Below the pieces are notes generated by a model. It was given only the letters and a program-made list of their open reading frames with translations, was not told where the DNA came from and searched no databases. DNA of 64,000 nt, taken from positions 2,976,001-3,040,000 of the forward strand of contig NZ_CP093301.1 in assembly GCF_024362785.1 (NCBI RefSeq), in the 5' to 3' direction. The translations under genes were made by a program, and so were the position numbers. Numbering within the stretch: position 1 is the stretch's first letter; the number at the start of each line of letters is the position of its first letter. Of the stretch, positions 47,395 to 64,000 are shown in pieces. This DNA comes from Evansella sp. LMS18 (GTDB lineage: Bacteria; Bacillota; Bacilli; Bacillales; Salisediminibacteriaceae).

Positions 47395-47459
47395 TCCGGT
47401 TAGATTGAATTTCTTGATAACAGAATGAATAAGATTGAACTTCTGGTGAGCAGGTAACT

Positions 47460-47876
47460 TTATTTTTTCTTCATCCCCCTTTCGGCGAACCGTATCTTTT
47501 TTAATAGCTCGTTCTCTGCTTTCAAAAGGTTAGTTTCTGCCTCTAACATTGCATATTTCTCTTCAATGGAGAGCTCTCTTTCCCTAGGTCTGCCTGAGTT
47601 TCCTGGCCTTGTGTCACGGAGTCCAAGAATCCCGTGCTTGCGATAAGCTTCTCGCCACCTTTTGCCAGAAGACTCGATCCGCTTGATTCCTAATACCTCC
47701 GTATCAAACCCACATTCTTTAAATATCTCTCTTGGGAACTTCCCCTGCTCATTTTGAGTTATAAAGTACTCCTTAAACTCGTCTGAATAAGTAATACCTT
47801 TAGGGCTTACTGATTTTACATATGGATTTTTAGCTAATAATTCGATCTCTTTTTCTGAAAATAACTTTTTACTCAT
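47460..47876 (-). CDS. IS3-family OrfA (DNA-binding)
   Basis: 138 residues. It contains a helix-turn-helix region (residues about 40-95, including WREAYRKHGILGLRD) and a C-terminal leucine-zipper-like helix (MLEAETNLLKAENELLKKI) used for multimerisation. It ends ATGAAGAAAAAATAA; slippage -1 on the A6 tract joins it to OrfB. The N-terminal 40 residues are longer than in minimal OrfA proteins, as in the IS150 group. Confidence 0.88.
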   Translation of the reverse strand: MSKKLFSEKEIELLAKNPYVKSVSPKGITYSDEFKEYFITQNEQGKFPREIFKECGFDTEVLGIKRIESSGKRWREAYRKHGILGLRDTRPGNSGRPRERELSIEEKYAMLEAETNLLKAENELLKKIRFAERGMKKK

Positions 47877-49411: not shown

Positions 49412-49627
49412 TTAAAAGTATTGGTATATATGCGGCAAGTGTCCAATCCTTAACGGTTTACCGGCATATAGTAAAGGAAGACGGGTGACATGATTGCTTC
49501 TTAAGTAACTGAATATTGCTCTCTGTTTATTTGCAGGATAGGTCAACTATCCTGCTTTTTTCTTGTGGTTTGGAGGGGCAGAATAATATGCCCTTGTTCT
49601 GCGAGGGGGCTCGTTTGAAAGTAAGGC

Positions 49628-50207
49628 AGAGGCTCTCGCATGCCCGCTCGGGGGAAAAAAGGGTCGGAGCGGTAACGCAAGAGGCTCTCGCATGCCCGCT
49701 CGGGGGAAAAAAGGGGCGGAGCGGTAACGCAAGAGGCCCTCGCATACCCGCTCGGGAGAAAAAAGAAGCCAAGCGGTAACGCAAGAGGCTCTTGCATACC
49801 CGCTCGGGAGAAAAAAGAGTCGGAGCGGTAACGCAAGAGGCCCTCGCATACCCGCTCAGGAGAAAAAAGAAGCCAAGCGGTAACGCGAGATCGTCTCGCA
49901 TACCCGCTTGCGGGAAAAATTAGGCCAAGCGGTAACGCAAGAGGCCCTCGCATACCCGCTCGGGAGAAAAAAGAGTCGGAGCGGTAACGCAAGAGGCTCT
50001 CGCATACCCGCTCGCGTGAAAAAAGAGTCGGAGCGGTAACGCGAGAGGCTCTTGCATGCCCGCTTGGGAGAAAAAAGTGGCCAAGCGGTAACGCAAGAGG
50101 TTCTTACATACCCGCTCGGGAGAAAAAAGAGTCGGAGCGGTAACGCAAGAGGCCCTCGCATACCCGCTCAGGAGAAAAAAGAAGCCAAGCGGTAACGCAA
50201 GAAGGCC
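49628..50207. repeat. 52-bp tandem hairpin array 2
   Basis: Eleven copies with an exact 52-bp period (TCGCA or TTGCA at 49636, 49688, 49740, 49792 ... 50156). The unit is CTCGCATACCCGCTCGGGAG, AAAAAAG(A/G)(G/A)(T/G)(C/G)(G/C), then GAGCGGTAACGCAAGAGG. AGCGGTA pairs with TACCCGCT around a loop at each junction. Two alternating unit types (GTCGGAGCGG and AGCCAAGCGG) occur. It is related to array 1 (17470-17750). It lies in a 1150-bp gap between the genes at 49411 and 50564. Confidence 0.9.
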
Positions 50208-50420
50208 ATAGATGTTCATACATACCCAAACTCCCTAAAACCCAGCCAGACATGTAACACGAAAACATAGCAAGGAGTAGTTCAGAAGTTCTGTTTACTT
50301 TTTCACGAAAAAAGGACAACATTTAAAGGAGTTTAAATTTAATGCGTGGAAGTAAACTATGAATATAAGCGTATTTATCACGATGCATAATCCTTAAAAA
50401 TCATGGCTCATAAAATACCG

Positions 50421-50518
50421 AAGATGAGCTGGCGGGAGATAACAGACACTTCCATCGCAAATAGTTCCAACTAACAATCAGTGTAGGGGTTGAACAAAGA
50501 ACCCACTGAATAAAATTC
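50421..50518 (+). repeat. Dispersed palindromic repeat, degenerate copy
   Basis: GGCGGGAGATAACAGACAC ... TTCCAACTAACAATCAGTG, then a weakened GGGGTTGAACAAAGAACCC hairpin. The left part matches the GGCGGGAGAGATAACGGACG of the copy at 29804. The right flank is eroded. It ends 45 nt before the DarA-like gene. Confidence 0.6.
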
Positions 50519-50563
50519 TTTTTATTACTGTCACTTAATTAACCAACAAGGAGGAGCCACATT

Positions 50564-50875
50564 ATGAAACTGATGATTTGTGTAGCTCACAACAGGTATG
50601 CGGATGAACTTGAAGAAAGACTTAAAGATAAAGGCTACAGAATGACTGAACTGGCTTCCAGCGGCGGTTTTCTGAAAAAGGGCAACACTACGTTCCTGTT
50701 TGGGATTAAAGATAATGATGCAGAAGCCCTGAGGAAAGAAATGCAGGCAATCTGCCTGGATGTAGAAAAGAAAAAAGGAAAATTAAAAGATGGCCAGAGC
50801 AGGTATACTTCTTTCGTTATTAATGTGAAAGACGCGCTCCCGTTTCTGAAAAATCTGAATAATGGTGTGACATAA
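50564..50875 (+). CDS. DarA-like cyclic di-AMP receptor family protein (DUF970)
   Basis: 103 residues; AAGGAGGAGC precedes the ATG. PII-like fold: MKLMICVAHNRYADELEERL, YRMTELASSGGFLKKGNTTFLFGI, then a final strand FVINVKDALPFL. The T.LAS.GGFL..GNTTF segment is the DarA/PstA (YaaQ) signature. Canonical DarA is about 109 residues, with a longer B-loop and a different C-terminus, so this is a paralogue and c-di-AMP binding is not assured. It stands alone just before the Lrp-type regulator. Confidence 0.8.
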   Translation: MKLMICVAHNRYADELEERLKDKGYRMTELASSGGFLKKGNTTFLFGIKDNDAEALRKEMQAICLDVEKKKGKLKDGQSRYTSFVINVKDALPFLKNLNNGVT

Positions 50876-51014
50876 ATTTAGGTTTCGTGTTACTATCGTT
50901 ATATAAACTCGTCAGCCAGAAAAACGCAAAATGTATTTCATATCGACTCTGAGACCAGTAGTTTAACAGATGCTATTAACCTGCTTAAAACACATATACG
51001 GGAGGCAGATTTAT

Positions 51015-51524
51015 ATGGATAACACAGATATCAGGCTGCTGGAAATCCTGCAGGAAGACGGGAGAATTACTTTAAGCGACCTTTCAAAGGAACTGGCGTT
51101 GAGCCGGCCAAGTGTGACAGAACGTCTGACAAGATTGAAAGAGCAAGGAATAATTAACAGAATAGGAGCAAGGGTTTCACCAGAATCTGTTGGCCGAAAA
51201 GTGCTCTTGTTTATTCAGGTAAGCGAGGTTACCGTGCCTTATAATGAGTTTGAGGAGATGATCAGCAGTCATCCTGATATTATTGAATGCCACCGTGTTA
51301 CAGGCATGATTAATTATCTTCTGAAAGCCGCAGTAGACGACATGGACCATTTAGGGAAACTGATCGATCATCTCATTCCATATGCGGCAATCAATACATC
51401 GATCGTTCTTAGCTCACCTGTGGAAGAAAAAGTGATCCTGCCATCACCGAAAACAGCGGAGAACCCGGAAAAGCATCTTAGCAGAAAGACAAGGGGAGAA
51501 CTTAAGAAGTTAAACAATATGTGA
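51015..51524 (+). CDS. Lrp/AsnC-family transcriptional regulator
   Basis: 169 residues from the ATG after GGGAGG; the frame extends upstream without a ribosome site. The N-terminal HTH is DIRLLEILQEDGRITLSDLS with LSRPSVTERLTRLKEQGIIN. The C-terminal RAM domain has HPDIIECHRVTGMINYLLKA, where the ligand, usually an amino acid, binds. The last 30 residues are a charged extension. Its position just upstream of a 2-oxo acid dehydrogenase and phenylalanine dehydrogenase operon makes it a candidate regulator responding to phenylalanine or another amino acid. Confidence 0.9.
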   Translation: MDNTDIRLLEILQEDGRITLSDLSKELALSRPSVTERLTRLKEQGIINRIGARVSPESVGRKVLLFIQVSEVTVPYNEFEEMISSHPDIIECHRVTGMINYLLKAAVDDMDHLGKLIDHLIPYAAINTSIVLSSPVEEKVILPSPKTAENPEKHLSRKTRGELKKLNNM

Positions 51525-51581
51525 AGGGAAAGAGAGTCATCCCTCTCCTGAAGAAAAGTTTAATGATGGTGTCAAATATTT

Positions 51582-51612
51582 AAAGAACCTTTCGCAGGTT
51601 TCTTTTTTTTTT
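51582..51612 (+). terminator. Terminator of the Lrp-family gene
   Basis: AAAGAACCT, loop TTCGC, AGGTTTCTTTTTTTT. The stem has one bulge. The AT-rich 51613-51826 stretch that follows should contain the operon promoter, but I see only an isolated TATACT (51781-51786). Confidence 0.6.
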
Positions 51613-51826
51613 CAACAATTCAAAGATAATTCTATTTTTTCTTAACAATTCGTTATGAAATCGTCATACAATTCTTCAGTTTTTACAAATTGAAGCTAGT
51701 GGAGATGTAATTTATTCATAATAAAACGAATTTTAAGAGAATTAGTACGATTTGGTATGTAGAATAAGTAATTATTCTTTTATACTTACACTAAGAAAAT
51801 AAAAAAGGTCTGCACAGTGTTAATGT

Positions 51827-51840
51827 TGTAAGCGTTGTCA
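51827..51840 (+). promoter_or_regulatory. cre-like site in the leader of the 2-oxo acid dehydrogenase operon
   Basis: TGTAAGCGTTGTCA matches TGWAARCGYTWNCW at 13 of 14 positions, 22 nt before the E1alpha start. CcpA bound there would act as a roadblock, giving carbon catabolite repression. Confidence 0.6.
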
Positions 51841-51862
51841 AAATAAAAAGGGAGTGAACATT

Positions 51863-52972
51863 ATGGCAATGAAAAGCAGTGAACTTCAAATGGCAGGTTC
51901 ACGTGAATCAGAAGTTTTTCAGGTCCTCAATCCTGAAGGGGAACTGCTGAGCGAACTGGGCGGAGACATTGATGAAGAGCTAATGATAAAAATGTATGAA
52001 AATATGCAGTTTGTAAGGGCATTTGACAGAAAGTCCGTCATTCTTCAAAGGCAGGGGAGGATCGGAACGTATGCCCCCTTTGAAGGCCAGGAGGCGTCCC
52101 AGGCAGGAAGCGCGATGGCTCTGTCTGATACAGACTGGATGTTCCCCACATACCGGGATCATGCAGCGGCCATGATCCACGGCCAGGAAATGTACCGTGT
52201 TTTTCTGTACTGGATGGCCCATATGGACGGAACAACCTGTACAGAAGGGAAGAAGATACTTCCCCCTTCAGTGCCTATTGCCACACAGCTGCTCCATGCA
52301 GTTGGAACTGGATGGGCTAGTAAATTGGACGGGGATAAGGATGTCAGCATTGCTTATTTTGGAGACGGGGCGAGTTCAGAAGGGGATTTCCACGAGGCTT
52401 TAAACTTTGCAGGTGTATTTAAGACGCCTACTATATTTTTCTGCCAGAATAATGGCTATGCCATCAGTGTCCCGTTCGAGAAACAGTCTGCCTCCAGAAC
52501 AATTGCACAGAGGGCGGCGGCTTATGATATTAACGGAGTGAGGATCGATGGGAATGATATTTTCGCAGTTTACCTGACTGTAAAGGAAGCTGTGGAAAGA
52601 GCGAGAAGGGGCGAGGGGCCTACTTTGATTGAAGCGGTGACCTTCCGTTACGGGGCCCACACTACAGCGGATGACCCTAAGAAATACCGTGATCAGGAAG
52701 AAGTTTCAAAGGAATGGCGGGACAACAGGGATCCACTGACGCGCCTTAATAAATACCTTACTGAAAAAGGGCTATGGGATGAAACGAAGGAAGCGGAACT
52801 TCTAAGGAAAGTCAACGCAAAAATTGATGAAGAACTGAAGCGTGCTGAAAATTATCCTAAATCACATGCACTTCAGATGTTCGATCATGTGTATGCCGAA
52901 ACTCCATGGCATATCGCAGAACAAAGGGAAGAGCTGAAGAAATATCTTGCAAAGGATGGGGATGAGAGTTGA
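51863..52972 (+). CDS. 2-oxo acid dehydrogenase E1 alpha subunit
   Basis: 369 residues from the ATG at 51863 after AAGGGAGTG. Thiamine-diphosphate motif GDGASSEGDFHEALNFAGVF ... FCQNNGYAIS (GDG-x-NN). The N-terminal FQVLNPEGEL and GRIGTYAPFEGQEASQ resemble PdhA of pyruvate dehydrogenase more than BkdAA. The loop after MAHMDG (TTCTEGKKILPPSVPIATQL) lacks the usual RG.QMP of PdhA, so the active-site entrance differs. With E1beta it decarboxylates a 2-oxo acid. The neighbours (phenylalanine dehydrogenase and paa genes) suggest phenylpyruvate; pyruvate or branched-chain oxo acids remain possible. Confidence 0.9.
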   Translation: MAMKSSELQMAGSRESEVFQVLNPEGELLSELGGDIDEELMIKMYENMQFVRAFDRKSVILQRQGRIGTYAPFEGQEASQAGSAMALSDTDWMFPTYRDHAAAMIHGQEMYRVFLYWMAHMDGTTCTEGKKILPPSVPIATQLLHAVGTGWASKLDGDKDVSIAYFGDGASSEGDFHEALNFAGVFKTPTIFFCQNNGYAISVPFEKQSASRTIAQRAAAYDINGVRIDGNDIFAVYLTVKEAVERARRGEGPTLIEAVTFRYGAHTTADDPKKYRDQEEVSKEWRDNRDPLTRLNKYLTEKGLWDETKEAELLRKVNAKIDEELKRAENYPKSHALQMFDHVYAETPWHIAEQREELKKYLAKDGDES

Positions 52973-53952
52973 GCCGGAAATTAACGATGATACAGGCGAT
53001 AACAGAAGTAATGGACCAGAAGCTTGCTGAGGACCCGCGGGTGATGCTGCTTGGAGAAGATATCGGGGTGAATGGCGGCGTTTTCCGGGCAACAGACGGA
53101 CTGGTGGAAAAATACGGCGAAGACAGAGTAGTTGACACTCCACTTGCAGAGTCGGGAATTGTGGGCACTTCCATTGGTCTTGCCATGAACGGGAAAATTC
53201 CGATTGTTGAAATCCAGTTTTTGGCTTTTATTTATCCGGCTTTTGAGCAGGTTGTCTCCCATGCGGCACGGATGAGATACCGTTCGAGAGGGCAGTTTGA
53301 AGTACCTATGGTAATCCGTACGCCATACGGGGCAGGTATCCGGGGACCAGAACTTCATTCAGAGAGTGTAGAAAGCTTTTTCGCTCATACACCTGGGTTA
53401 AAAGTAGTTGTACCTGGAAGTCCTTACGATGCGAAAGGACTTCTCGTCTCTGCAATTGAAGACAAAGACCCTGTCATTTTCCTGGAGCCGACAAAACTGT
53501 ACAGAGCATTTAAAGAAGAGGTGCCTGAAGAGCTTTACCGGGTCCCGCTGGGCAAAGCGAAAGTTGTTAAAGAAGGAACCGATTTAACGATCTTCTCCTG
53601 GGGAGCAATGCTGAGAGAGGCTGTGAATGCGGCATCCAAGCTTGAAATAGAGAAAGGCATGAGCTGTGAAGTGGTAGATCTCCGTACTTTGTATCCGCTG
53701 GACAGAGATACAATCATTGAATCGGTCAAGAAAACCGGAAGAGCAGTTGTAGTGCATGAAGCACATAAAACAGCTGGTCTTGGCGGTGAAGTAATCTCGC
53801 TTATTAATGATGAGGCACTTATATATTTAAAGGCGCCGGTCAAGAGAATTGCAGGCTTTGATGTGCCTGTACCAATGTTTTCTGTAGAGGAAGACTATAT
53901 GCCGACACTGGAACGTGTGAAAAGGGGCATTGAAGAAACGGTTAATTTCTAA
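52969..53952 (+). CDS. 2-oxo acid dehydrogenase E1 beta subunit
   Basis: 327 residues starting at a TTG whose second and third bases are in the stop of E1alpha (4-nt overlap); GGGGATGAGAG provides the ribosome site. Transketolase-like pyrimidine domain: RVMLLGEDIGVNGGVFRATD with the catalytic Glu, TPLAESGIVGTSIGLAMNG, then the C-terminal domain with VVHEAHKTAGLGGEV. Length and motifs are standard for PdhB/BkdAB. It forms the alpha2beta2 E1 tetramer with the preceding gene product. Confidence 0.93.
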   Translation: MSRKLTMIQAITEVMDQKLAEDPRVMLLGEDIGVNGGVFRATDGLVEKYGEDRVVDTPLAESGIVGTSIGLAMNGKIPIVEIQFLAFIYPAFEQVVSHAARMRYRSRGQFEVPMVIRTPYGAGIRGPELHSESVESFFAHTPGLKVVVPGSPYDAKGLLVSAIEDKDPVIFLEPTKLYRAFKEEVPEELYRVPLGKAKVVKEGTDLTIFSWGAMLREAVNAASKLEIEKGMSCEVVDLRTLYPLDRDTIIESVKKTGRAVVVHEAHKTAGLGGEVISLINDEALIYLKAPVKRIAGFDVPVPMFSVEEDYMPTLERVKRGIEETVNF

Positions 53953-53980
53953 TCAGGGCAGGCTTAAAGGAGGAAAAATA

Positions 53981-55273
53981 ATGGTGGAATTCAAGCTCCC
54001 TGACGTAGGGGAAGGAATGCACGAAGGTGAAATACTCAGCTGGTTTATAAAAGAAGGAGACTTCGTTGAGCAGGACCAGCCGGTTCTGGAAGTACAGACT
54101 GACAAAGTAAACGCGGAACTCACTGCACCGGCATCCGGCGTCATTAAAAAGATTTTCTTTAATGAAGGAGAAGTAGCAGAAGTAGGCTCTATACTTTTTA
54201 CTATTGTGGAGGAAGGTGCATCTGAAGAATCGGCGGCTGCAGCTGAAGCGGTGGCAGAAATGGCACCACAGCAGACCGAAGAAAAGAAACCTGCAGTAAC
54301 AGCAGTTGTTTCCGAAGGGGCAGGATCTGCTGCACAGACACGTGCTCTGGCAACTCCGTTTGTGAGGCAAATGGCCCGTGAAATGAAGATAGACATTGAG
54401 AAAGTTACTGGTACAGGGCCGGCAGGGCGAGTTACTGAATCAGATTTGCGCGATTACTCCAGTGAGACAGTGAAAGCTGCTGAAAAGGCAGAGCCAGTGG
54501 AACAATCTCCTGGGAAGGAAACCCAGAAAACCTCTGAAACGAATAAAGTAATGGAATTCAGCCTTGGACAAGAGGAAGAGAGGATACCATTAAAAGGAAT
54601 CAGAGAAAAAATCGCAGAGCGAATGGTAAAGTCTGTTTCCACTATTCCTCATGTCACTCATGTAGATGAGATGGAAATGGGGCCGCTGAAAGAACTCAGG
54701 GATGAGCTGAAAGTGTTTGCGGAACAGAAAAATATAAAACTCACATATCTCCCATTTTTTATAAAAGCGGTTGTTATCGCGTTAAAAGAGTATAAAGTCT
54801 TTAACGCTTCAGTGGATGAAGAGAATAAGGAAATAGTGTTGAAAAATTACTATCATATCGGTATAGCTACTGATACAGCACAAGGCCTTGTAGTCCCTGT
54901 TATTAAAAATGCGGACAGGAAGAGCATTCTAGAGATTGCCAGGGAAATAGGGGAACTTGCTGAGCAGGCACGGGAAGGAAAACTGAAGGTGAATGATATA
55001 ACCGGAAGCACGTTTACAATCAGTAATGTAGGCCCGATCGGCGGCATGCACGCTACACCGATAATCAATCATCCGGAGGCTGCGATACTTGCTTTGCATA
55101 AGATGGAGCCGAGAATGGTAGTCAGGGACTGGGAAGGTGTTATCAGCCTGATGATGAACATTTCCTTGTCATTTGACCACCGGATTATTGACGGAGTGGC
55201 CTCGGTAAAGTTCACAAACAGAATAATCGAATTGCTTGAAAATCCGAAACTTCTTTTTATGGAGATGAACTAA
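53981..55273 (+). CDS. 2-oxo acid dehydrogenase E2 (dihydrolipoyl acyltransferase)
   Basis: 430 residues from the ATG after AAAGGAGG. There is one lipoyl domain (residues 1-77, lipoyl Lys in EVQTDKVNAEL), an Ala/Glu-rich linker, and a peripheral subunit-binding domain (ATPFVRQMAREMKIDIEKVT). The catalytic domain ends with SFDHRIIDGVASVKF, where the H-x3-D-G motif is catalytic. It carries the acyl group to CoA; if the substrate is phenylpyruvate the product is phenylacetyl-CoA. It forms the core to which E1 and E3 bind. Downstream lpd starts directly after its stop. Confidence 0.93.
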   Translation: MVEFKLPDVGEGMHEGEILSWFIKEGDFVEQDQPVLEVQTDKVNAELTAPASGVIKKIFFNEGEVAEVGSILFTIVEEGASEESAAAAEAVAEMAPQQTEEKKPAVTAVVSEGAGSAAQTRALATPFVRQMAREMKIDIEKVTGTGPAGRVTESDLRDYSSETVKAAEKAEPVEQSPGKETQKTSETNKVMEFSLGQEEERIPLKGIREKIAERMVKSVSTIPHVTHVDEMEMGPLKELRDELKVFAEQKNIKLTYLPFFIKAVVIALKEYKVFNASVDEENKEIVLKNYYHIGIATDTAQGLVVPVIKNADRKSILEIAREIGELAEQAREGKLKVNDITGSTFTISNVGPIGGMHATPIINHPEAAILALHKMEPRMVVRDWEGVISLMMNISLSFDHRIIDGVASVKFTNRIIELLENPKLLFMEMN

Positions 55274-56701
55274 ATGGTTGTAGGCGAAGTAGCAGTTGAA
55301 ACAGACGTAGTAGTAATAGGAGGAGGCCCAGGCGGTTATGCTGCAGCAATCCGCCTTGGGCAGCTTGGAAAATCAGTCACATTAATCGAAAAGGATGCAT
55401 TAGGCGGTGTCTGTCTGAACAGAGGGTGTATACCATCAAAGGCGTTAATCCATACAGCGGAACAATATCATAACTTGTCAGAACTTGGACAGATGGGAAT
55501 TAAGCTGCCGGAAGCTGCCACTTCTCCAAGCTTTAACATGGAGGACTGGCAGAAATGGAAAGGCGGAATTGTCTCACGCTTAAACCAAGGCATCGCCCAT
55601 TTATGCGAAAAAAACGGTGTTACTGTTGTAAAAGGGGAGGCGAGTTTCCTCTCCGAGAACAGAATAGGTGTGGAAACAGGCGGAGATTTTGAAACCTATA
55701 AATTTGAAGAGGCAATAATAGCAACCGGATCACGCCCGATTCTTCCCTCTTTTCTCCCGGTGGATGGAGAATATATTATTGATTCAACTGCAGCTCTCGA
55801 GCTTAGTGAAGTCCCGGGAAAACTGGCGGTAATAGGTGGAGGCTATATAGGGATTGAAATGGGAATGGCTTTTGCGAAACTGGGAGCGGAAGTCACTGTT
55901 GTAGAAATGGCTGACAGGATTTTAGCCCAGGTTTCCCCGGAGCTTGCAAAAGAGGTGGAGAAAAAAGCAAAGAAGGCCGGTATTAAGCTGAAAACATCCG
56001 TCAAGGTAGAAGAAGCAGATGTGGAGAACGGCCAGGTTACCCTCCGGACTTCAGGTGCTGAAGGAGAAGAAGTCATCCAGGCAGACAAAGTTCTCGTCAC
56101 CATCGGAAGAATGCCTAATACGGAAGGAATAGGACTCTCCCAGGCAGGAGTCAGTGCAGATGAAAGAGGCTATATTGAGGTAGACAGTCAGTGCAGAACG
56201 AAGGTGCCTAATATTTTTGCAATCGGTGATATCACTCCTGGTCCGGCTCTCGCCCATAAGGCATCCAAACAGGGAATTGTAGCCGCGGAAGTAATCGGAG
56301 GACTGCCGAGTGCAGTAGATTCGCCTTATATTCCTTATGTTATATTTTCAGACCCACAGATTGCCGGTGTTGGACTTACCCTTGAGGAAGCTGAGAGAGA
56401 GGGAAGGAACGTTAAAACTGGGAAGTTTCCTTTCCAGGCTAATGGAAGAGCGCTGGCCACGAATGAAGCAGAAGGCTTTGCAGAAGTCATTGTCGACGCG
56501 GAATCACATGTTCTTCTCGGAATGCATGTTGTGGGAGCAGATGCCTCAAACCTTATTGGAGAAGGTGTGCTCGCCATGGAACTGGCGGCGCGTGTGGAAG
56601 ATATTGCTCTGACTGTCCACCCCCATCCCACTTTAACAGAAGGATGGCTGGAGGCGGCTGAAGCAGCACTGGGACATGCCATTCACATTGTAAACAATTA
56701 G
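55274..56701 (+). CDS. lpdA: Dihydrolipoyl dehydrogenase (E3)
   Basis: 475 residues, starting immediately after the E2 stop. FAD-binding [19 protein letters not shown], redox-active disulfide [20 protein letters not shown] site [22 protein letters not shown] motif [16 protein letters not shown], and the active-site base [14 protein letters not shown]. It reoxidises dihydrolipoate of E2 to make NADH. This is an operon-dedicated E3 rather than a shared one. All features are intact. Confidence 0.95.
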
Positions 56702-56744
56702 GAATGGCATGGAGTATATATCAGCAAAAAATGGAGGTATAGCA

Positions 56745-57884
56745 ATGAGCTTACTTGAGCATCCCATGGGCTTGAAGTCAGAACTTTTAACTGAATTTTC
56801 CGAATTTGAACAGGTGGTTTTCTGCAACGATCAGGACACAGGCCTGAGAGCTATAATAGCAATCCATAATACAGCAGCCGGACCAGCTATCGGGGGCTGC
56901 CGGATGCAGCCGTATCCTACGATGGCAGAGGCACTGGAAGATGTCCTCCGGCTTGCAAAAGGGATGACTTATAAATGTGCCGCTGCAGATGTGGACTTCG
57001 GAGGAGGAAAATCCGTTATTATCGGAGACCCGTCTACTGATAAATCACCGGAAATGTTCAGGGCGTTTGGCAAGTTTGTAGATTCATTGAACGGTCGTTT
57101 TTACACAGGAACCGATATGGGGACGACCATGGAGGATTTTGTCCATGCACTGAAAGAAACAAATTGTATTGTAGGAACCCCGGAAATGTATGGAGGAAGC
57201 GGGGACTCTTCTGTCCCGACAGCGATGGGAGTTATATACGCCCTGAAAGCGACGAACAAAACGCTTTTTGGGAACGACATCCTTGCCGGTAGAAGTTATG
57301 CGATTCAGGGACTTGGAAAAGTTGGTTATAAAGTGGCTGAACAGCTTCTGGAAGAAGGTGCTGATCTGTTTGTTTCCGACCTTGATGAACGACTTCTGGA
57401 AAAAATTACGCTGAAAGGTAAGGAGACAGGCACTCAAGTAAAGATACTTAAAGGGGATGAAATATATTCTGCAGAGGCCGATGTATTCGTTCCTTGTGCT
57501 GTAGGAGGCATCATTAACGAGGAGACGATTGAAAAATTAAAGGTAAGAGCAGTAGCCGGGTCAGCAAATAATCAGCTCCTTCATCAGAAAATGGGCGAAA
57601 AACTGCAGAGCAGAGGAATTCTTTATGCTCCGGATTATATAACAAACAGCGGCGGCCTCATTCAGGTTTCCGATGAATTATACGGTTCCAGCAAAGATAG
57701 AGTTTTAGCTAAAACAAAAGCAATCTATTATTCTATCACAGAAGTATTCAGCAGTGCGGAGCGAAACAATCTTACAACCGTGGAAGCTGCAAATCGCATG
57801 TGTGAAGAAAGAATTGAAAGCCGTAAAAGACAAAACAGCTTTTTCCTTCATAACAGAAGGCCTAAATGGGACATCCGGCATTAA
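56745..57884 (+). CDS. pdh: Phenylalanine dehydrogenase (Glu/Leu/Phe/Val family)
   Basis: 379 residues from the ATG at 56745 after GGAGG; phenylalanine dehydrogenases are about 380 residues. It converts L-phenylalanine, NAD+ and water to phenylpyruvate, NH4+ and NADH. Catalytic lysines are in [20 protein letters not shown]. YKCAAADxDFGGGK is the variant I know from Bacillus phenylalanine dehydrogenases, whereas leucine dehydrogenases have YKNAAAGLNLGGGK. The C-terminus [16 protein letters not shown] also matches the phenylalanine enzyme. The Rossmann motif is [13 protein letters not shown]. It is in one run with the E1-E2-E3 genes (43 nt gap), so its product can feed the complex directly. Confidence 0.85.
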
Positions 57885-57968
57885 TGAACATGGAGAGAAG
57901 GTTATACTTTGTTAGCTCCACTGGAGAAACAAATATACAATAAAACGATTGATCAAGGAGGAGAAAAA

Positions 57969-59105
57969 ATGTATCAGAAGCTGTTGAAATTTATGGGGGC
58001 AGGATTACTTAGTGTGATGGTTCTTGCAGGATGCGGTGCAGACGACACGGATGGAGCAGAAGGAAACAATGACGCTGACGGTAACGGGGAAGCGGCAGCA
58101 GCAGAAAACAACAACAATGAAGAAAACGCCGCCAATAACGATGGGAATAATGCCGCAGACAACAATGACGATGGCAATGAAGCGGCAGCAGCCGGCGAAC
58201 TTGAAGAAGTGAAGATTGGCGCCACTCAGATTGTGGAACACCCATCCCTTGACGCAGCCTTTGAAGGATTTAAATCAGCTCTAGCTGACAGTGGCTACGT
58301 GGAAGGAGAAAACGTTTCTTATAATTTCCAGAGCGCACAGGGTGACCAGAATAATGCGAATACAATCGCTAATAACTTTGTCGGCGATGGAGTCGATATG
58401 ATTTTTGCAAACTCTACTCCAAGCTCTCTTGCGGCACTTAATGCAACGGGAGACATTCCGATCGTTTTCACATCTGTAACTGATGCTGTCGGAGCGGGTC
58501 TTGTTACAGCTCTTGATGAGCCAGGTGAAAATATTACAGGCGTACAGGATCTGCATCCGGAAGCAATACCAATGACAGTTGATTTCATTGAAAATTATTT
58601 CCCGGATTCCACAATTGGAACGATCTATAACTCAGGAGAGCAAAACTCTGTAGCTCAGATCGAGACACTGGAAGAAGCAATCGACGGAACAAGCTTATCT
58701 TTGGTAACACGAAGTGTATCTACTTCCGCTGAAGTTCAGCAGGCGGCTGATTCACTTGCTGGTGATGTTGACGTTTTCTATATTGTAACGGACAACACAG
58801 TAGTTTCCGCCCTTGAAACTGTAGTAGCATCTGCGAACGACCACGACATTCCGTTAGTTGTCGGGGAACCTGACTCTCTCGGACGCGGCGGTTTTGCATC
58901 CTACGGTATTGATTACTTCACGATCGGATACCGCGCAGGAGAAATGGCTGCGGAAATATTAAAAGGAGAAAAAACTACACTCGACTTCCCTGTAGAAGAT
59001 CCTCCTGAAATGCAGCTGATGATTAACAAAGAAGCTGCGGAACAGCAAGGCGTTGAATGGGATGACGAATGGGACAGCATCGCAGAGTTTGTTGAAACTG
59101 AGTAA
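57969..59105 (+). CDS. ABC transporter substrate-binding lipoprotein (DUF534/TrpX type)
   Basis: 378 residues from the ATG after AAGGAGG; an upstream TTG at 57909 is unsupported. The signal peptide has lipobox VLAGC (Cys22). Residues about 25-78 are a linker almost only of N, D, G, E and A (with blocks such as GEAAAAENNNNEENAA). Then comes the type I binding protein fold starting VKIGATQIVEHPSLDAAFEG, with DMIFANSTPSSLAALNATGD, VFTSVTDAVGAGLV and ASYGIDYFTIGYRAGEMAA. The ABC_sub_bind family includes tryptophan/tyrosine importers. Position between the phenylalanine dehydrogenase and paa genes suggests phenylalanine or a related aromatic as ligand. Confidence 0.85.
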   Translation: MYQKLLKFMGAGLLSVMVLAGCGADDTDGAEGNNDADGNGEAAAAENNNNEENAANNDGNNAADNNDDGNEAAAAGELEEVKIGATQIVEHPSLDAAFEGFKSALADSGYVEGENVSYNFQSAQGDQNNANTIANNFVGDGVDMIFANSTPSSLAALNATGDIPIVFTSVTDAVGAGLVTALDEPGENITGVQDLHPEAIPMTVDFIENYFPDSTIGTIYNSGEQNSVAQIETLEEAIDGTSLSLVTRSVSTSAEVQQAADSLAGDVDVFYIVTDNTVVSALETVVASANDHDIPLVVGEPDSLGRGGFASYGIDYFTIGYRAGEMAAEILKGEKTTLDFPVEDPPEMQLMINKEAAEQQGVEWDDEWDSIAEFVETE

Positions 59106-59117
59106 ACAGAAGATGCT

Positions 59118-59145
59118 CATGCGCTTCTATTAACAGAAGCGCATG
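59118..59145 (+). terminator. Intercistronic hairpin between binding protein and permease genes
   Basis: CATGCGCTTCT, loop ATTAAC, AGAAGCGCATG: an 11-bp perfect stem. The T-run (CTCTTTTT) is not adjacent, so it may be a weak terminator or an mRNA stabiliser that raises binding-protein level over the permease. Confidence 0.55.
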
Positions 59146-59179
59146 ACTATCTCTTTTTCGGAAGGCTGGTGATTTTAAA

Positions 59180-60199
59180 ATGATGATCTCCCTATTTGGT
59201 TCATTTGAATCAGGGATTATATACGCTCTCATGGCACTAGGTGTTTATTTATCATTCAGAGTTCTGGACTTTCCGGACTTAACAGTGGACGGAAGTTTCG
59301 TAACTGGAGCAGCTGTTGCCGCTCTGATGATTATTAATGGTTATTCTCCGCTGACAGCTACTCTGGCAGCAGTCATCGCCGGCTTTATTGCTGGTTGTAT
59401 AACAGGAATACTCCATACAAAAGGTAAAATCAATCCTCTATTATCAGGTATTTTAATGATGATCGCCCTCTATTCCATTAACTTGCGGATAATGGGCAGG
59501 CCGAACATTCCCCTGCTTAACGAAGAAACTATTTTCACAAAATTAACAGCCTTCTGGCAGAATCTTGGTCTTGATTCTGTTTTCAATCCAATCCTTGGTA
59601 TTTTCGGAGCAACACAATTCCCGAGAACATGGGCTGTATTAATTGTAATGGTCTTTGTTACTTTCGCCATCAAGTTCTTAACAGATTATTTCCTGAAAAC
59701 AGAAACCGGGCTCGCAATAAGGGCCACAGGTGATAACAAACGGATGATCAGAAGTTTCTCTGCGAATACAGACTGGCTGATTATTCTTGGAATTGGGATA
59801 TCAAACGCAATGGTTGCTTTATCAGGTTCTCTGATTGCCCAGCATGGTGGTTTCGCTGATGTGGGGATGGGGATCGGGATGATCATCATCGGGCTTGCTT
59901 CTGTAATTATTGGTGAAGCTTTATTCGGTGCAAAGACGATAGCCAGAGCTACGTTAGCTGTTATCGGCGGGGCTATCATTTATCGTATTGCCGTAACTTT
60001 TGCATTAAGAGTAGATTTTCTCGAAGCAGGCGATATGAAAGTCATCACAGCAGTTATTGTTATTGCGGCACTTGTAGCTCCTAAAATCCTGGAGTCAAGA
60101 AGAGACAAAAAGAGACGGATGCGCAAGAGAGACGAGCTTTCAAAGAGACTTGCCTTTGAAAATGAAAGCGGAGGAGTGAAGAGCAGTGCTGCACCTTAA
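59180..60199 (+). CDS. ABC importer permease (BPD_transp_2 family)
   Basis: 339 residues with eight to nine membrane helices. It has the LivH-like ABC permease pattern: GIIYALMALGVYLSFRVLDFPDLTVDGSF, then ETGLAIRATGDNKRMIRSF, the cytoplasmic coupling helix, and GLASVIIGEALFG. The C-terminus is basic (RRDKKRRMRKRDEL). It pairs with the DUF534 binding protein upstream and the ATPase downstream, which overlaps it by 14 nt. The ribosome site is GGAAGGCTGGTG. Confidence 0.88.
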   Translation: MMISLFGSFESGIIYALMALGVYLSFRVLDFPDLTVDGSFVTGAAVAALMIINGYSPLTATLAAVIAGFIAGCITGILHTKGKINPLLSGILMMIALYSINLRIMGRPNIPLLNEETIFTKLTAFWQNLGLDSVFNPILGIFGATQFPRTWAVLIVMVFVTFAIKFLTDYFLKTETGLAIRATGDNKRMIRSFSANTDWLIILGIGISNAMVALSGSLIAQHGGFADVGMGIGMIIIGLASVIIGEALFGAKTIARATLAVIGGAIIYRIAVTFALRVDFLEAGDMKVITAVIVIAALVAPKILESRRDKKRRMRKRDELSKRLAFENESGGVKSSAAP

Positions 60200-60980
60200 A
60201 AATGTCAGTATAACTTTTAACGAAGGGACCCCGGATGAGAAAAAAGCACTCCAAAACATTAATGTGGAATTGAAAAAGGGTGATTTCCTTACAGTAATAG
60301 GCAGTAACGGAGCAGGAAAATCCACGATGATGAACTCGATTTCAGGTTCTTTGATCACAGATGTAGGCGATATTGAGATTAATGGAAAGAATGTAACCCA
60401 TATGCCTGAATACAAGCGCGCAGCCTTTATCGGAAGGGTTTTTCAGGATCCAATGGCAGGAACAGCACCAAGTATGACAATAGAAGAAAACCTTGCGATG
60501 GCTTTTTCGAGAAATAAAAAAAGAACATTAAAGCTCGGGGTTAACAAGAAAAGACGCCAGATGTTCAAGGAATATCTTGAAACACTGAACCTAGGGCTGG
60601 AAAACCGTATTAACGCTAAAGTAGGGCTCCTTTCAGGAGGGGAAAGACAGGCTTTGTCTCTTCTAATGGCAACTTTTACAGAGCCGGAAATACTTCTCCT
60701 CGATGAGCATACAGCAGCCCTTGATCCGGCCCGGGCAGAACTGATTACAAATCTGACGGATGAGATTGTCAGCAAGTTCAATCTCACTACTCTGATGGTT
60801 ACCCATAATATGCAGCAGGCACTTGACTTAGGCAACCGTCTGGTCATGATGGACAGCGGCCAGATAATCCTCGATGTAGAGGGAGAGGAAAAACAAAAAC
60901 TTACTATCGAGAAACTTCTGCAGGAATTCCAGCGTTTACGAGGCAAAAAGATGGAGAGTGACAGGGCCGTCCTTGCATAA
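60186..60980 (+). CDS. ABC importer ATP-binding protein
   Basis: 264 residues from a GTG at 60186 within the end of the permease gene, with GGAGGAG upstream. Walker A GSNGAGKST, signature LLSGGERQALSLLMA, Walker B ILLLDEHTAALDP and VTHNMQQALDLG. The unusual DEHTAALDP (His for Ala/Pro) is typical of the ATPases paired with DUF534 systems. It is the last gene of the transporter unit. The paa promoter follows within 60 nt. Confidence 0.9.
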   Translation: MLHLKNVSITFNEGTPDEKKALQNINVELKKGDFLTVIGSNGAGKSTMMNSISGSLITDVGDIEINGKNVTHMPEYKRAAFIGRVFQDPMAGTAPSMTIEENLAMAFSRNKKRTLKLGVNKKRRQMFKEYLETLNLGLENRINAKVGLLSGGERQALSLLMATFTEPEILLLDEHTAALDPARAELITNLTDEIVSKFNLTTLMVTHNMQQALDLGNRLVMMDSGQIILDVEGEEKQKLTIEKLLQEFQRLRGKKMESDRAVLA

Positions 60981-61037
60981 AAAAATGCCAGTACCCCAGA
61001 CAGCGCCAACCATTAAAGACAGAATATTTAATTTTCA

Positions 61038-61066
61038 TTGCCAATCGTATGACTTTATACTATAAT
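61038..61066 (+). promoter_or_regulatory. Sigma-A promoter of the paa genes
   Basis: TTGCCA (61038-61043), 17 nt, TATAAT (61061-61066). Start of transcription would be near 61073. Confidence 0.75.
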
Positions 61067-61090
61067 TACGTTATAAATACGTTATACGTA
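61067..61090 (+). promoter_or_regulatory. Direct-repeat operator candidate at the paa promoter
   Basis: TACGTTATA occurs at 61067-61075 and 61078-61086, 11 bp apart (one helical turn), directly after the -10 box. The second repeat is extended to TACGTTATACGTA, a near-palindrome. A repressor here would cover the transcription start. Confidence 0.5.
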
Positions 61091-61106
61091 GGAGGCGTGA
61101 TTTAAA

Positions 61107-62078
61107 ATGGTTGATGCGACGTACGATAATCAGGTTGACCAGCAGAAGTACGAACAGTTCATGGAGAAAATAGAAGCCGGAGGAAAGATCGAAGCAGATG
61201 ACTGGATGCCTGATGACTACAGGAATGCATTGATTAAGCTTATTTCTATGCACGGCATTAGTGAAATAATGGGAGCTCTGCCAGAGAAGGAGTGGACCCC
61301 GAAGGCTCCGTCCTTACACAGAAAGCTGGGAATTATGGCAAAAGTGCAGGACGAAATGGGGCACGGCCAGCTTCTGCTTCGTGTCGCAGAAGATTTGATG
61401 GCTCCATTAGGAAAGAATCGTGAAGATATTATGGAAGATTTATTAAGCGGAAGATTAAAGTTTCATAATGTGTTCCATATGGAAACAAAGACGTGGGCAG
61501 ACGCAGGAATTGTAGGATGGCTTGTGGATGGCGCGGCAATCATCACCCAGACAAATATGCTCGATTCATCTTATGGTCCATACGCAAGAGCACTGAAAAG
61601 AATTTGTGCAGAGGAAGTGTTCCATGCTCAGCACGGGGAAGCGATCATCATGGCGCTGGCTGAAGGAACAGATCAGCAGAAAGAACTGATCCAGGAAGCG
61701 CTTAACCGCTGGTGGCCAGCACTGCTGATGTTCTTCGGGCCTGCATCAGCCAATACAACAGGGTCTTCCAAACAGGACACCACAATCAAATATAAGATTC
61801 GTAAAAATACAAATGAGGAACTGAGACAACATTTTTTCACTAAATATGTGCCAAGGATATTGTCTCTGGGGCTGACTATCCCTGACGAAACAATTCGCTA
61901 TGACGAAGAAAATGAAACATGGATTTATCAGCAGCCTGACTGGAATGAGTTTAAACAAATAATTTCTAACAACGGGCCAAAATCGAAAGAAAGATTGCAG
62001 CTCAGAAGGATTTCCCATGAAAGTAACGCATGGGTCAGAGAAGCCCTGGGTGCGAGAAGGAACATTTCGGCTGTCTGA
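61107..62078 (+). CDS. paaA: 1,2-phenylacetyl-CoA epoxidase, catalytic subunit A
   Basis: 323 residues; GGAGG upstream. PaaA is the di-iron oxygenase subunit that adds one oxygen to the ring of phenylacetyl-CoA. Metal ligands are visible in the two ExxH motifs: KVQDEMGHGQLLLRVAEDL (residues about 77-95) and CAEEVFHAQHGEAI (about 170). KTWADAGIVGWLVDGAAII, near residue 130, is a family landmark. The length is slightly above the 309 of E. coli PaaA. First gene of paaABCD; the electron-transfer subunit PaaE is not in the window. Confidence 0.94.
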   Translation: MVDATYDNQVDQQKYEQFMEKIEAGGKIEADDWMPDDYRNALIKLISMHGISEIMGALPEKEWTPKAPSLHRKLGIMAKVQDEMGHGQLLLRVAEDLMAPLGKNREDIMEDLLSGRLKFHNVFHMETKTWADAGIVGWLVDGAAIITQTNMLDSSYGPYARALKRICAEEVFHAQHGEAIIMALAEGTDQQKELIQEALNRWWPALLMFFGPASANTTGSSKQDTTIKYKIRKNTNEELRQHFFTKYVPRILSLGLTIPDETIRYDEENETWIYQQPDWNEFKQIISNNGPKSKERLQLRRISHESNAWVREALGARRNISAV

Positions 62079-62104
62079 TAAAAAATAGCGAAGGAGGGAG
62101 AAGC

Positions 62105-62467
62105 ATGGATACTAACAGAGAAAATATCGATTTGTTTTATGAGGAGTTTGTTGTTTTCAGTAAAAAAAATCCAAACGGACATATGACGGAGCAGTATACC
62201 TTACTGGCTCCAAACGCGGAACTGGCACTGATGATGGCGCAGGAAAACTTTATGAGACGAGAACCTGTCAGTGACTTATGGGTGGTTAAGCGTTCGGATA
62301 TTACAGCGGTGAAACCGGAGGACAGGGAAATGCTGTTCCGTCTTGATAATAAAGATTACCGTAATACAAAGGGATACGGCTATCTTAAGAAAAAATGGCG
62401 TGAAAAAGAACAGGAAATGTTTGATGAAAAAGAGATACTCTCCTGGGCTAAGGGGGTTGGAAAATGA
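62105..62467 (+). CDS. paaB: 1,2-phenylacetyl-CoA epoxidase subunit B
   Basis: 120 residues from the ATG after GGAGGGAGAAGC. The sequence YEEFVVFSKKNPNGHMTEQY, APNAELALMMAQENFMRREPVSDLWVV is the PaaB fold, here about 25 residues longer at the C-terminus than E. coli PaaB (95 residues), in a Lys/Glu-rich helix, as in other Gram-positive versions. PaaB is needed for a working epoxidase though its exact role is structural. It overlaps paaC by 4 nt. Confidence 0.92.
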   Translation: MDTNRENIDLFYEEFVVFSKKNPNGHMTEQYTLLAPNAELALMMAQENFMRREPVSDLWVVKRSDITAVKPEDREMLFRLDNKDYRNTKGYGYLKKKWREKEQEMFDEKEILSWAKGVGK

Positions 62468-63285
62468 GTATCAAATCAGCTGGGGAAATAACTGATCAGA
62501 CATATAAAAAAGTGCTGGCTGAATTGCTTTATCAGCTGGGGGACGATGATTTTGTACTGTCTTTCAGGGGCTCCGAGTGGCTGGGGCTCTGCCCGCATAT
62601 TGAAGAAGATGTAGCTTATTCTTCTATTACCCAAAATACAATGGGGCACGCCACTATGTATTATAAACTCCTTGAGGAACTTGGCGAAGGCACGGCAGAC
62701 GAACTTGCCCACGCCAGGCCAAAAGAGGAGAGAAAGAATGCAGTCATCCTGGAAGAAAAAAACGGCGAAGGCGGATATATGGATGAACCGCGGTATGACT
62801 GGGCTTTCACCGTAGTCAGAAATTACCTTTATGAGGCTGCGAAAAAAGTCAGGCTCGATTCATTAAAGCAATCATCCTACAGCCCGCTTGCTAATGTTGC
62901 AAAGAGTATAAGCAGAGAGCAATATTTCCATCTCAAGCACTGGGAAGTATGGTTTACTCAGCTTCTGTCGAGTACACCAGAAGCTGCTGAAAGAATGAAT
63001 ATCCAGGTTGAAAGGGTATGGCAGGACTTCGGAGATGTCTTATCACTTGGGCCATCAGGGGAAAAAATGACAGAATTCAAGCTGATTGGGGACGAGAAAA
63101 CGTTAGCCGAACAATGGACTAAACAGGTTGAGGCTTCATTTGAAAAAGCAGGGGCAAAAATACCGGAGGGAGCTACCGGGTCAGTATCAGGGAACGGAAG
63201 AGAAGGATTTCATACCGATGATCTTACTCAGGCCCTTGACACTCTTGGAGAAGTTTATAATCTTGACCGTGCTGCCACCTGGTAA
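62464..63285 (+). CDS. paaC: 1,2-phenylacetyl-CoA epoxidase structural subunit C
   Basis: 273 residues; ATGA overlap with paaB. Ferritin-like fold with PaaC landmarks: DDDFVLSFRGSEWLGLCPHI, NTMGHATMYYKLLEELGE, and SREQYFHLKHWEVWF. The iron ligands of PaaA are largely missing, in line with the known structural, catalytically silent role of PaaC in the PaaA-PaaC heterodimer. The C-terminal GREGFHTDDLTQALDTLGEV is conserved in the family. Confidence 0.93.
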   Translation: MSIKSAGEITDQTYKKVLAELLYQLGDDDFVLSFRGSEWLGLCPHIEEDVAYSSITQNTMGHATMYYKLLEELGEGTADELAHARPKEERKNAVILEEKNGEGGYMDEPRYDWAFTVVRNYLYEAAKKVRLDSLKQSSYSPLANVAKSISREQYFHLKHWEVWFTQLLSSTPEAAERMNIQVERVWQDFGDVLSLGPSGEKMTEFKLIGDEKTLAEQWTKQVEASFEKAGAKIPEGATGSVSGNGREGFHTDDLTQALDTLGEVYNLDRAATW

Positions 63286-63319
63286 ACCCAGTGCCGCAGT
63301 ATAAAGCGAGGTGGAAGAT

Positions 63320-63823
63320 ATGCAGCATGAAGTACAGCAGGTAAGAGAAGAGATTCTTGAAGCTCTTAAAGAGGTGAAGGACCCGGAAATCCCGTCTGTC
63401 AGTGTCGTCGAGCTTGGTATGTTTTACGATGCACAAATTGAAAATGGCAAGGTTATCGTTATTAAGATGCTCCCTACATTTACTGGGTGTCCGGCCCTGG
63501 ATATTATCAGCAGGGATATCCGATTAGCAGTCCAGAGTAAGATCAGCTGGGCCGAAGAAGTCAAAGTAGAATTTGTATTCGACGAAAACTGGACGACAGA
63601 AAGAATTAGTGAAGAAGGAAGACAGAAGCTGAAAGAGTATGGAATCGCTCCGCCTCCTGTCAAACATAAGGAGGGCGACCCGTGGCATGTGGACTGCCCA
63701 TATTGCGGGTCCACCTATACGACAATGGAGAATATTTTCGGCCCGGCAGCGTGCAGAAGCATTCTTTACTGCCGTTCATGCAAGAATCCTTTTGAAGCTA
63801 TGAAACCAGTATCAAATATTTAA
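63320..63823 (+). CDS. paaD: PaaD, iron-sulfur maturation factor of the epoxidase
   Basis: 167 residues from the ATG after GAGGTGG; a GTG at 63311 lies in that site. Residues 1-95 are a MIP18/SufT-like domain (ILEALKEVKDPEIPSVSVVE, MLPTFTGCPALDIIS). The C-terminal zinc-ribbon has two CxxC pairs, DCPYCGSTYT and YCRSCKNPF. PaaD is thought to help assemble the iron-sulfur centre of PaaE or the di-iron site of PaaA. It follows paaC by 34 nt. Confidence 0.92.
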   Translation: MQHEVQQVREEILEALKEVKDPEIPSVSVVELGMFYDAQIENGKVIVIKMLPTFTGCPALDIISRDIRLAVQSKISWAEEVKVEFVFDENWTTERISEEGRQKLKEYGIAPPPVKHKEGDPWHVDCPYCGSTYTTMENIFGPAACRSILYCRSCKNPFEAMKPVSNI

Positions 63824-63843
63824 AAACAGAGAGGAAGATTTAA

Positions 63844-64000
63844 ATGGTAAAATTCACTGCATTATACAAAAAACCGGAAAATCCTGCAGCATTTGATGAA
63901 CACTACTTCAACGTTCATGCTCCTCTTACAGAAAAAATCCCTGGCCTCCGTAAGATGGAAGTAACAAAAATCGTCGGCTCGCCGATGGGGGAAACAGACT
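63844..64000 (+). CDS. EthD-family protein, N-terminal part
   Basis: The first 52 codons are in the window and the frame is open at the right edge. MVKFTALYKKPENPAAFDEH, YFNVHAPLTEKIPGLRKMEV is the EthD dimeric alpha/beta-barrel opening (Y..P.d...F..hY...H.pl...ipGl). GAGAGGAAG precedes the ATG, 20 nt after paaD. I recall EthD proteins inside Gram-positive paa clusters; their role there is unclear. Confidence 0.85.
   Translation, partial: MVKFTALYKKPENPAAFDEHYFNVHAPLTEKIPGLRKMEVTKIVGSPMGETD

Follow-up and report, generated by a model that had tools for sequence, protein, structure and literature searches.

The phenylacetate (paa) pathway is usually described as starting with the ligase PaaK. 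Direct formation of phenylacetyl-CoA from phenylpyruvate has been described in a few systems. In Streptomyces pristinaespiralis, the pyruvate dehydrogenase-like alpha and beta subunits PglB/PglC are reported to carry out this conversion in the biosynthesis of the phenylglycine (Phg) of pristinamycin, and the pgl genes given in the accessible sections of these accounts are two E1 subunits, a Phg dehydrogenase/dioxygenase, a thioesterase and an aminotransferase (PMC7089894, PMC10685826). According to the accessible sections of their sources, Ior1 of Phaeobacter converts phenylpyruvate into phenylacetyl-CoA without PaaK in tropodithietic acid synthesis (PMC5577590), and a further article states the direct conversion and leaves the enzyme unnamed (PMC7497051). 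Given the PglB/PglC and Ior1 precedents, the reaction itself is not new. Here we describe a gene cluster of Evansella sp. LMS18, contained in a window of 64,000 nucleotides (bases 2976001-3040000 of one 4.90 Mb contig), which is very likely a phenylalanine (Phe) catabolon with a dedicated aromatic 2-oxoacid dehydrogenase complex, here predicted from sequence to turn phenylpyruvate into phenylacetyl-CoA and NADH. What appears to be new, within the open-access literature searched, is a complete catabolic E1-E2-E3 complex devoted to phenylpyruvate and widespread in one order, together with a tyrosine (Tyr) sister branch; no description of a paa-linked phenylpyruvate dehydrogenase complex was found there, most subscription papers lying outside the search.

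By their description, PglB/PglC resemble the window complex in pairing E1-type alpha and beta subunits and in the reaction attributed to them, and they differ in being biosynthetic, in sitting in an antibiotic cluster and in having no E2 or E3 among the pgl genes listed; Ior1 differs in being described as an indole oxidoreductase, not as a lipoamide complex. Ior1 is of the ferredoxin-dependent type. The ptb-leuDH-buk-lpd-bkdAA-AB-B arrangement of Bacilli is like the window cluster in joining an ELFV-family dehydrogenase to E1, E2 and E3, leading from an amino acid to an acyl-CoA; the bkd operon of LMS18 itself differs in the leucine dehydrogenase (LeuDH) pocket of its dehydrogenase (L, A, T, V), in the lack of paa linkage within the 12 kb read and in its distant place in the E1 tree. 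With the classical paa pathway the cluster shares PaaABCD, the later genes and PaaX, and it differs in that neither paaK nor paaE was found in the operon, as extended to paaX in this genome.

The cluster genes, identified from open reading frames (ORFs) with Pfam and NCBIfam models, all lie on the + strand between 50970 and 63823, with an EthD-domain gene running off the window end. A gene for an Lrp/AsnC-family regulator comes first (50970..51524, start possibly 51015; PF01037 and PF13404 over cut-off). It is followed by E1alpha (51854..52972, start possibly 51863; PF00676), whose translation has the thiamine pyrophosphate (TPP) motif GDGAS...NN, by E1beta (52969..53952; PF02779, PF02780; NF006667 at 318.6 bits, slightly below its cut-off of 321), by an E2 dihydrolipoyl acyltransferase (53981..55273, ORF from 53930 with TTG) with the lipoyl motif QTDKVNAEL and SFDHRIIDG of the DHRxxDG type, for which the best NCBIfam models match below their cut-offs, and by an E3 dihydrolipoyl dehydrogenase (55274..56701; TIGR01350 at 568.7 bits against a cut-off of 408.8) with CxxxxC in its translation. 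With E1 TPP subunits, a lipoyl E2 and an E3 all present, the set is a predicted E1ab-E2-E3 2-oxoacid dehydrogenase complex. Next come an amino-acid dehydrogenase of the phenylalanine dehydrogenase (PheDH) type (56745..57884, ORF from 56709; PF02812, PF00208) and an ATP-binding cassette (ABC) importer, made up of a substrate-binding protein of the TrpX/PF04392 family (57969..59105, ORF from 57909; PF04392 at 273 bits), a permease (59180..60199; PF02653) and an ATPase (60186..60980; PF00005). The phenylacetyl-CoA epoxidase genes follow, namely PaaA (61107..62078; TIGR02156 at 476 bits, cut-off 280), PaaB (62105..62467, ORF from 62030; PF06243), PaaC (62464..63285; TIGR02158 at 248.9 bits, cut-off 133.35) and PaaD (63311..63823; TIGR02159 at 179.8 bits, cut-off 108.15), and then the EthD-domain gene (63844..64000, + strand, complete as L088:12945-13250). 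Past the window the genome continues with EthD, paaF, paaG, an aldehyde dehydrogenase (ALDH), paaH, paaJ, echA and paaX (Pfam matches, gene names by reading); by reading, paaF, paaG and echA are enoyl-CoA hydratase/isomerases, paaH a 3-hydroxyacyl-CoA dehydrogenase and paaJ a thiolase. The one-strand array from Lrp to EthD that a first-pass annotation of the window had listed was thus recovered in full, and extends further, to paaX.

The dehydrogenase next to the complex could be compared with PheDH residue by residue. For the Bacillus badius enzyme, the accessible part of the source gives a pocket, obtained by docking in a homology model, of L50, G51, G52, M75, F86, G123, V144, L306, V309 and L313, and catalytic residues K78, K90, D125 and N276 (PMC8543943); the pocket of the Thermoactinomyces enzyme is given as including G114, A135 and L294 (PMC8967036). 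We mapped these positions to the window enzyme through two anchors that share an offset of 11. In B. badius numbering, the window enzyme has F, G, V and L at 86, 123, 144 and 306, that is, the PheDH residue at all four pocket positions that discriminate PheDH from LeuDH, where the LeuDH of the same genome and 1LEH have L, A, T and V. Across the catalytic and pocket positions of the B. badius list it is identical to PheDH at 13 of 14, with I replacing L50. Mutagenesis work is reported to show that the G/L pair of the pocket governs the choice between Phe and Leu. Among 27 homologues from the fetched loci, G and L are present in all 27 and F in 26, and position 144 holds V in 23 and A in four; two LeuDH-like ORFs from far loci carry mixed residue sets. 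The PheDH signatures noted at first pass are therefore real at the pocket positions of the two papers, though the enzyme passes no curated NCBIfam cut-off (best ScyB, 346.6 against 600). We infer that the dehydrogenase is of the PheDH type, with a predicted NAD-dependent deamination of Phe.

The association of these genes was followed in 35 genomes of the family and in 348 genomes of the order, sampled evenly from 127 genera. Within the family, paaA passed its cut-off in eight genomes, and an E1alpha sharing 56% identity or more with that of the window was present in those eight and in G013, the next best E1alpha matches being at 43% identity; in all eight, paaA and E1alpha lie on one contig within 26 kb. 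Across the order, paaA was over cut-off in 146 genomes and E1 of the window type in 152, with both in 138, paaA only in eight, E1 only in 14 and neither in 188 (Fisher p = 3.8e-69), so that E1 accompanies paaA in 138 of 146 genomes, against 14 of the 202 lacking paaA. At genus level the counts were 56, 6, 9 and 56 (p = 1.7e-19), and both p-values are generous because of kinship among genomes. One genome scored as neither, G137, has paaA and E1 as broken pieces (L178, L179). Coordinates were lacking for five of the 152 E1 genomes; among the 138 with both genes, these share a contig in 118, lie on different contigs in 19 and lack coordinates in one, and the distance on a shared contig is within 25 kb in 107 of 118, with a median of 16 kb. 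The PheDH-type dehydrogenase was found in 135 of the 348 genomes, 124 of them with E1, and all 124 also have paaA; its gene starts at most 1.5 kb from E1alpha in 112 of the 121 genomes carrying both on one contig. This co-occurrence and linkage of paaA and E1 led us to reject a coincidental neighbourhood. Six of the eight paaA-only genomes were inspected (all except G165 and G207), and in five of the six paaK lies about 3 kb or less from paaA (L166-L169, L176), with neither the dehydrogenase nor the complex in the 20 kb stretch.

The distribution of PaaK bears directly on the bypass of this ligase that had been proposed at first pass. Full-length PaaK is present in seven of the eight paaA genomes of the family (six over cut-off, G010 just below; none in G018, which is 76% complete). 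In the order, at E 1e-150, it was found in 120 of 348 genomes, comprising 112 of the 138 with paaA and E1, seven of the eight with paaA only and one without paaA. This leaves 26 of 138 genomes, in 19 genera, without an intact PaaK, and when these were searched again with the PaaK of LMS18 as query, nothing PaaK-like at E 1e-10 was seen in 18 of them (14 genera). Three others have close paaK pieces near paaA (two overlapping pieces in G153, where a sequencing error is possible; a partial copy with two stops in G313; a fragment in G275), and in the remaining five the only matches are relatives no more than 32% identical. Fifteen of the 26 genomes were read, and all 15 carry paaA, paaB, paaC and E1alpha/beta, 14 carry paaD and 13 PheDH; the set of later genes is variable, with no match to ALDH, paaF, paaG, paaH or paaJ in some stretches. 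The conserved linkage and the paaK absence that the first-pass annotation looked to are thus both seen. What counts for the bypass is the need of the 18 genomes for some supply of phenylacetyl-CoA; a correlation of PaaK loss with E1 is not claimed. A 2026 paa survey, by its accessible part, anchors on PaaK and inspects 20 genes on each side, and no mention of phenylpyruvate was found in its main text (PMC13186573); being anchored on PaaK, that survey would miss PaaK-less loci and so overlook PaaK-less degraders. Other phenylpyruvate-consuming enzymes were sought in nine genomes, LMS18 included, where neither phenylpyruvate decarboxylase (TIGR03394; best matches 126 bits in LMS18 and 189.7 in G008, cut-off 554.5) nor IorA (TIGR03336) had a match over cut-off.

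We hypothesise that Phe enters through the TrpX-like importer and would be deaminated oxidatively to phenylpyruvate by the PheDH-type dehydrogenase, and that the lipoamide complex, through E1 with TPP, lipoyl E2 and E3, would decarboxylate phenylpyruvate oxidatively to phenylacetyl-CoA, CO2 and NADH. PaaABC(D) would then epoxidise the ring of phenylacetyl-CoA and the remaining paa operon would complete the breakdown, presumably under the control of Lrp and PaaX. Each of the two oxidations would yield NADH, and oxidative decarboxylation would replace ATP-dependent ligation; since it supplies the thioester energy, neither ATP nor PaaK would be required on Phe. A solitary PaaK elsewhere in the genome may serve free phenylacetate.

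The E1 sequences were placed in a FastTree tree of 116 rows, then in a tree of 73 rows (51 clade loci, the window, the pdh and bkd complexes of LMS18 and 19 others; L060 offered no E1 pair that could be used) and then in one of 68 rows of E1alpha plus E1beta with 680 columns, in which own_bkd, L052, L082, L049 and L035 were left out; the relatives named here come from the best 80 loci of the scan. Together with 51 loci, the window makes up a single clade of 52 rows, with bootstrap and Shimodaira-Hasegawa-like approximate likelihood ratio test (SH-aLRT) values of 98/93 in the 68-row tree and SH-aLRT 91 in the 73-row tree; 49 of the 52 rows are grouped at 100/99, and the window complex is set apart from the genome's own pdh. 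Members include Brevibacillus, Peribacillus, Paenibacillus, Alicyclobacillus, Metabacillus and Thermoactinomyces. L081, without aromatic partners, adjoined L030 in the 116-row tree and was left out of later ones. Clade-marker residues are T99 (48/52) and E77 (49/52) of E1alpha and A122 of E1beta (47/52, with Gly in all 21 others). In the stretches examined for the 51 loci, at least two paa genes are found in 27, at least two hpa genes in seven, PheDH in 25 and a HisC-like aminotransferase in 15, and an Lrp homologue more than 50% identical lies in the examined stretch of eight.

Nested in this clade is a branch of nine loci (100/99), which we call the Tyr branch, with no paa genes in their stretches and with the HisC-like aminotransferase and an esterase in all nine. 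In six, hpaF, hpaG1 and hpaG2 are present together, joined by hpaE and hpaB in two of the six, where the HpaG and HpaE models are over cut-off and HpaF and HpaB (partial) are below the NCBIfam and above the Pfam cut-offs; in G240, a seventh, about 12 kb separate E1alpha from hpaB and hpaE, and L021 and L164 have no clear hpa gene in the stretch. The changes A74V and F76Y of E1alpha are shared by all nine. Ten of the 14 E1-only genomes were read (all save G106, G131, G296 and G327), and eight of the 14 belong to this branch. The linked esterase is present in nine of nine Tyr-branch loci vs none of the 42 in the rest of the clade. The substrate of PaaABC is the CoA ester and that of HpaB is the acid in free form, so that an esterase restricted to this branch fits a need to release the acid for HpaB. 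In G026, hpa genes, Lrp, the complex, PheDH, PaaK and paa all occur within about 37 kb (L140, L099). The dedicated phenylpyruvate dehydrogenase of the first-pass annotation is supported for the window by gene context and survey, and since the nested branch is tied to 4-hydroxyphenylacetate genes, the family would be better called aromatic 2-oxoacid dehydrogenase than strictly phenylpyruvate dehydrogenase.

Two further contexts of the complex can be mentioned. In L015 (Ammoniphilus sp. YIM 78166), the complex and a TrpX-like importer stand behind a 4-hydroxyphenylpyruvate dioxygenase, a HisC-like aminotransferase, a fumarylacetoacetate (FAA) hydrolase and an HgmA-like protein, a homogentisate-like context for Phe and Tyr. 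In three Brevibacillus loci (L011, L013, L014) an opposite-strand ORF lies upstream of the complex; by Pfam, the copy in L011 is a PAS/sigma-54 activator, and the other two are similar by eye.

We consider it reasonably probable, as one joint claim, that this lipoamide-dependent clade is an ATP-free, PaaK-independent front door to paa in much of the order, taking Phe to phenylacetyl-CoA, that it allowed PaaK to be lost in many genera, and that it was once re-used for Tyr, with an aminotransferase replacing PheDH and an esterase recruited as a 4-hydroxyphenylacetyl-CoA thioesterase freeing the acid for HpaB. The direction of this switch, by which one branch of the clade would have moved to Tyr and 4-hydroxyphenylacetate catabolism, is likewise something that we infer. 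If true, a large Gram-positive group breaks down Phe with no free phenylacetate on the way and no ATP used for activation, and enzymes now modelled as pyruvate dehydrogenase and tryptophan dehydrogenase gain a defined role. It would also indicate a natural way to phenylacetyl-CoA and 4-hydroxyphenylacetyl-CoA that needs no ATP, and the E1 clade would offer a clean family for studying substrate range branch by branch.

A number of observations speak against a phenylpyruvate-dedicated, PaaK-independent complex, and we weigh them here together with the alternatives. The threshold by which 152 genomes were counted as E1 carriers, about E 1e-104, was set after viewing the list, and two of the E1-only genomes that pass it, G041 and G098, lie outside the clade. 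So does L061, which is paa-linked and falls in the sister group (clade plus sister, 57 rows, 100/100), and for seven of the 51 clade loci the examined stretch contains none of the aromatic partners. Loss of PaaK is not enriched in E1 carriers (26/138 vs 1/8 of the paaA-only genomes, p = 1). LMS18 itself encodes a full-length, solitary PaaK at 4783137, about 1.75 Mb from the cluster, with no paa gene matched near it within the 19.9 kb read; the complex would therefore add a second entry here instead of replacing the ligase, which corrects, for this genome, the bypass proposed at first pass. G160 (L165, L175; 94% complete) has a paa operon, a TrpX-like importer and PheDH with neither E1 nor PaaK found, which may reflect another phenylacetyl-CoA source or a genome gap. 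The absence of TIGR03394 matches is weak evidence, because none of 14 control genomes passes that cut-off. As for the dehydrogenase, its whole length scores PDB LeuDH at 365 bits, tryptophan dehydrogenase (TrpDH) at 278 and PheDH at 180, and since the LeuDH-like ORF L087 also has L at the 306 position, single pocket residues are not diagnostic.

The importer's best model is tryptophan, and with the tryptophan dehydrogenase-like model of the dehydrogenase this could suggest a broad aromatic complex whose main substrate is indolepyruvate or 4-hydroxyphenylpyruvate, phenylpyruvate being secondary. We regard this as unlikely, as PaaABC is established to act on phenylacetyl-CoA, the window operon has no indole or hydroxyphenyl genes and its dehydrogenase has the PheDH pocket. 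The TrpX-type importer of the first-pass annotation was in part upheld, being an ABC importer of the PF04392 family whose binding protein, a fold-family relative, stays below the curated TrpX cut-off (NF041285, 246.9 bits against 390).

Still less probable is a second pyruvate or branched-chain 2-oxoacid dehydrogenase co-transcribed with paa by chance and making acetyl-CoA or branched acyl-CoA, even though the NCBIfam equivalog TIGR03181 would name the window E1alpha pyruvate dehydrogenase E1 (477.6 bits, cut-off 411.35) and its best PDB matches are pyruvate dehydrogenase E1 alpha subunits (3duf, 1w85). PF00676 matches seven places in the genome, two weakly and five over a long stretch, the five being the window E1alpha, a 966-residue frame of 2-oxoglutarate type by size and three other E1alpha in neighbourhoods that read as a pdh operon (L090), an acetoin-type aco operon (L091) and ptb-leuDH-buk-lpdV-bkdAA-AB-B (L092). 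As these operons exist separately, we rejected the window complex as the housekeeping pyruvate, branched-chain or acetoin complex, and the bkd operon has its own LeuDH, distinct from the window dehydrogenase. The near-constant pairing of E1 with paaA and the PheDH-type, not LeuDH-type, neighbour also stand against a chance association, under which paa genomes with nothing PaaK-like would have no known source of phenylacetyl-CoA. That the complex serves Phe and its phenylacetyl-CoA is hydrolysed, so that PaaK is still needed, is highly improbable: PaaK is kept in LMS18 and in most paaA and E1 genomes and a 4HBT thioesterase lies beyond paaX, but 18 such genomes have nothing PaaK-like and the linked esterase is confined to the one branch that requires free acid for its pathway. 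The dedicated aromatic complex, acting here on phenylpyruvate, remains our preferred explanation.

Some features of the region are known from pattern matches. A sigma-70-like site upstream of paaA (TTGCCA-17-TATAAT, 11/12; 61038..61066, + strand) may let paa be transcribed separately under PaaX for phenylacetate, such sites numbering 23 in the region vs 18.2 (sd 4.5) in shuffles. A 12-pair, terminator-like stem-loop lies between the binding-protein and permease genes (59117..59146, + strand), with 11 such sites in the region vs 9.8 in shuffles. A scan of 50000-64000 with Rfam gave no match at the gathering score, and nothing convincing was seen among repeats upstream of E1. PaaE (TIGR02160) was over cut-off in none of the 348 genomes despite paaA in 146, and also in none of the 14 control genomes, so that this model had no positive control; the lack of matches raises the question of the electron donor of the epoxidase in these bacteria. 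Beyond paaX lie a hexapeptide (PaaY-like) protein on the opposite strand, an NMO-family protein and the 4HBT thioesterase. Immediately upstream of the Lrp gene is a cyclic-di-AMP receptor-like protein (PF06153, 50564-50875), and at 46543-47876, on the - strand, an ORF pair resembles an IS3-family transposase by eye. A tandem array occupies 49621-50202 (52-bp unit, 11.2 copies, 85% matches), and another, with a different 51-bp unit in 11.4 copies (L091 1-579), occurs in the same genome and hints at a family of arrays.

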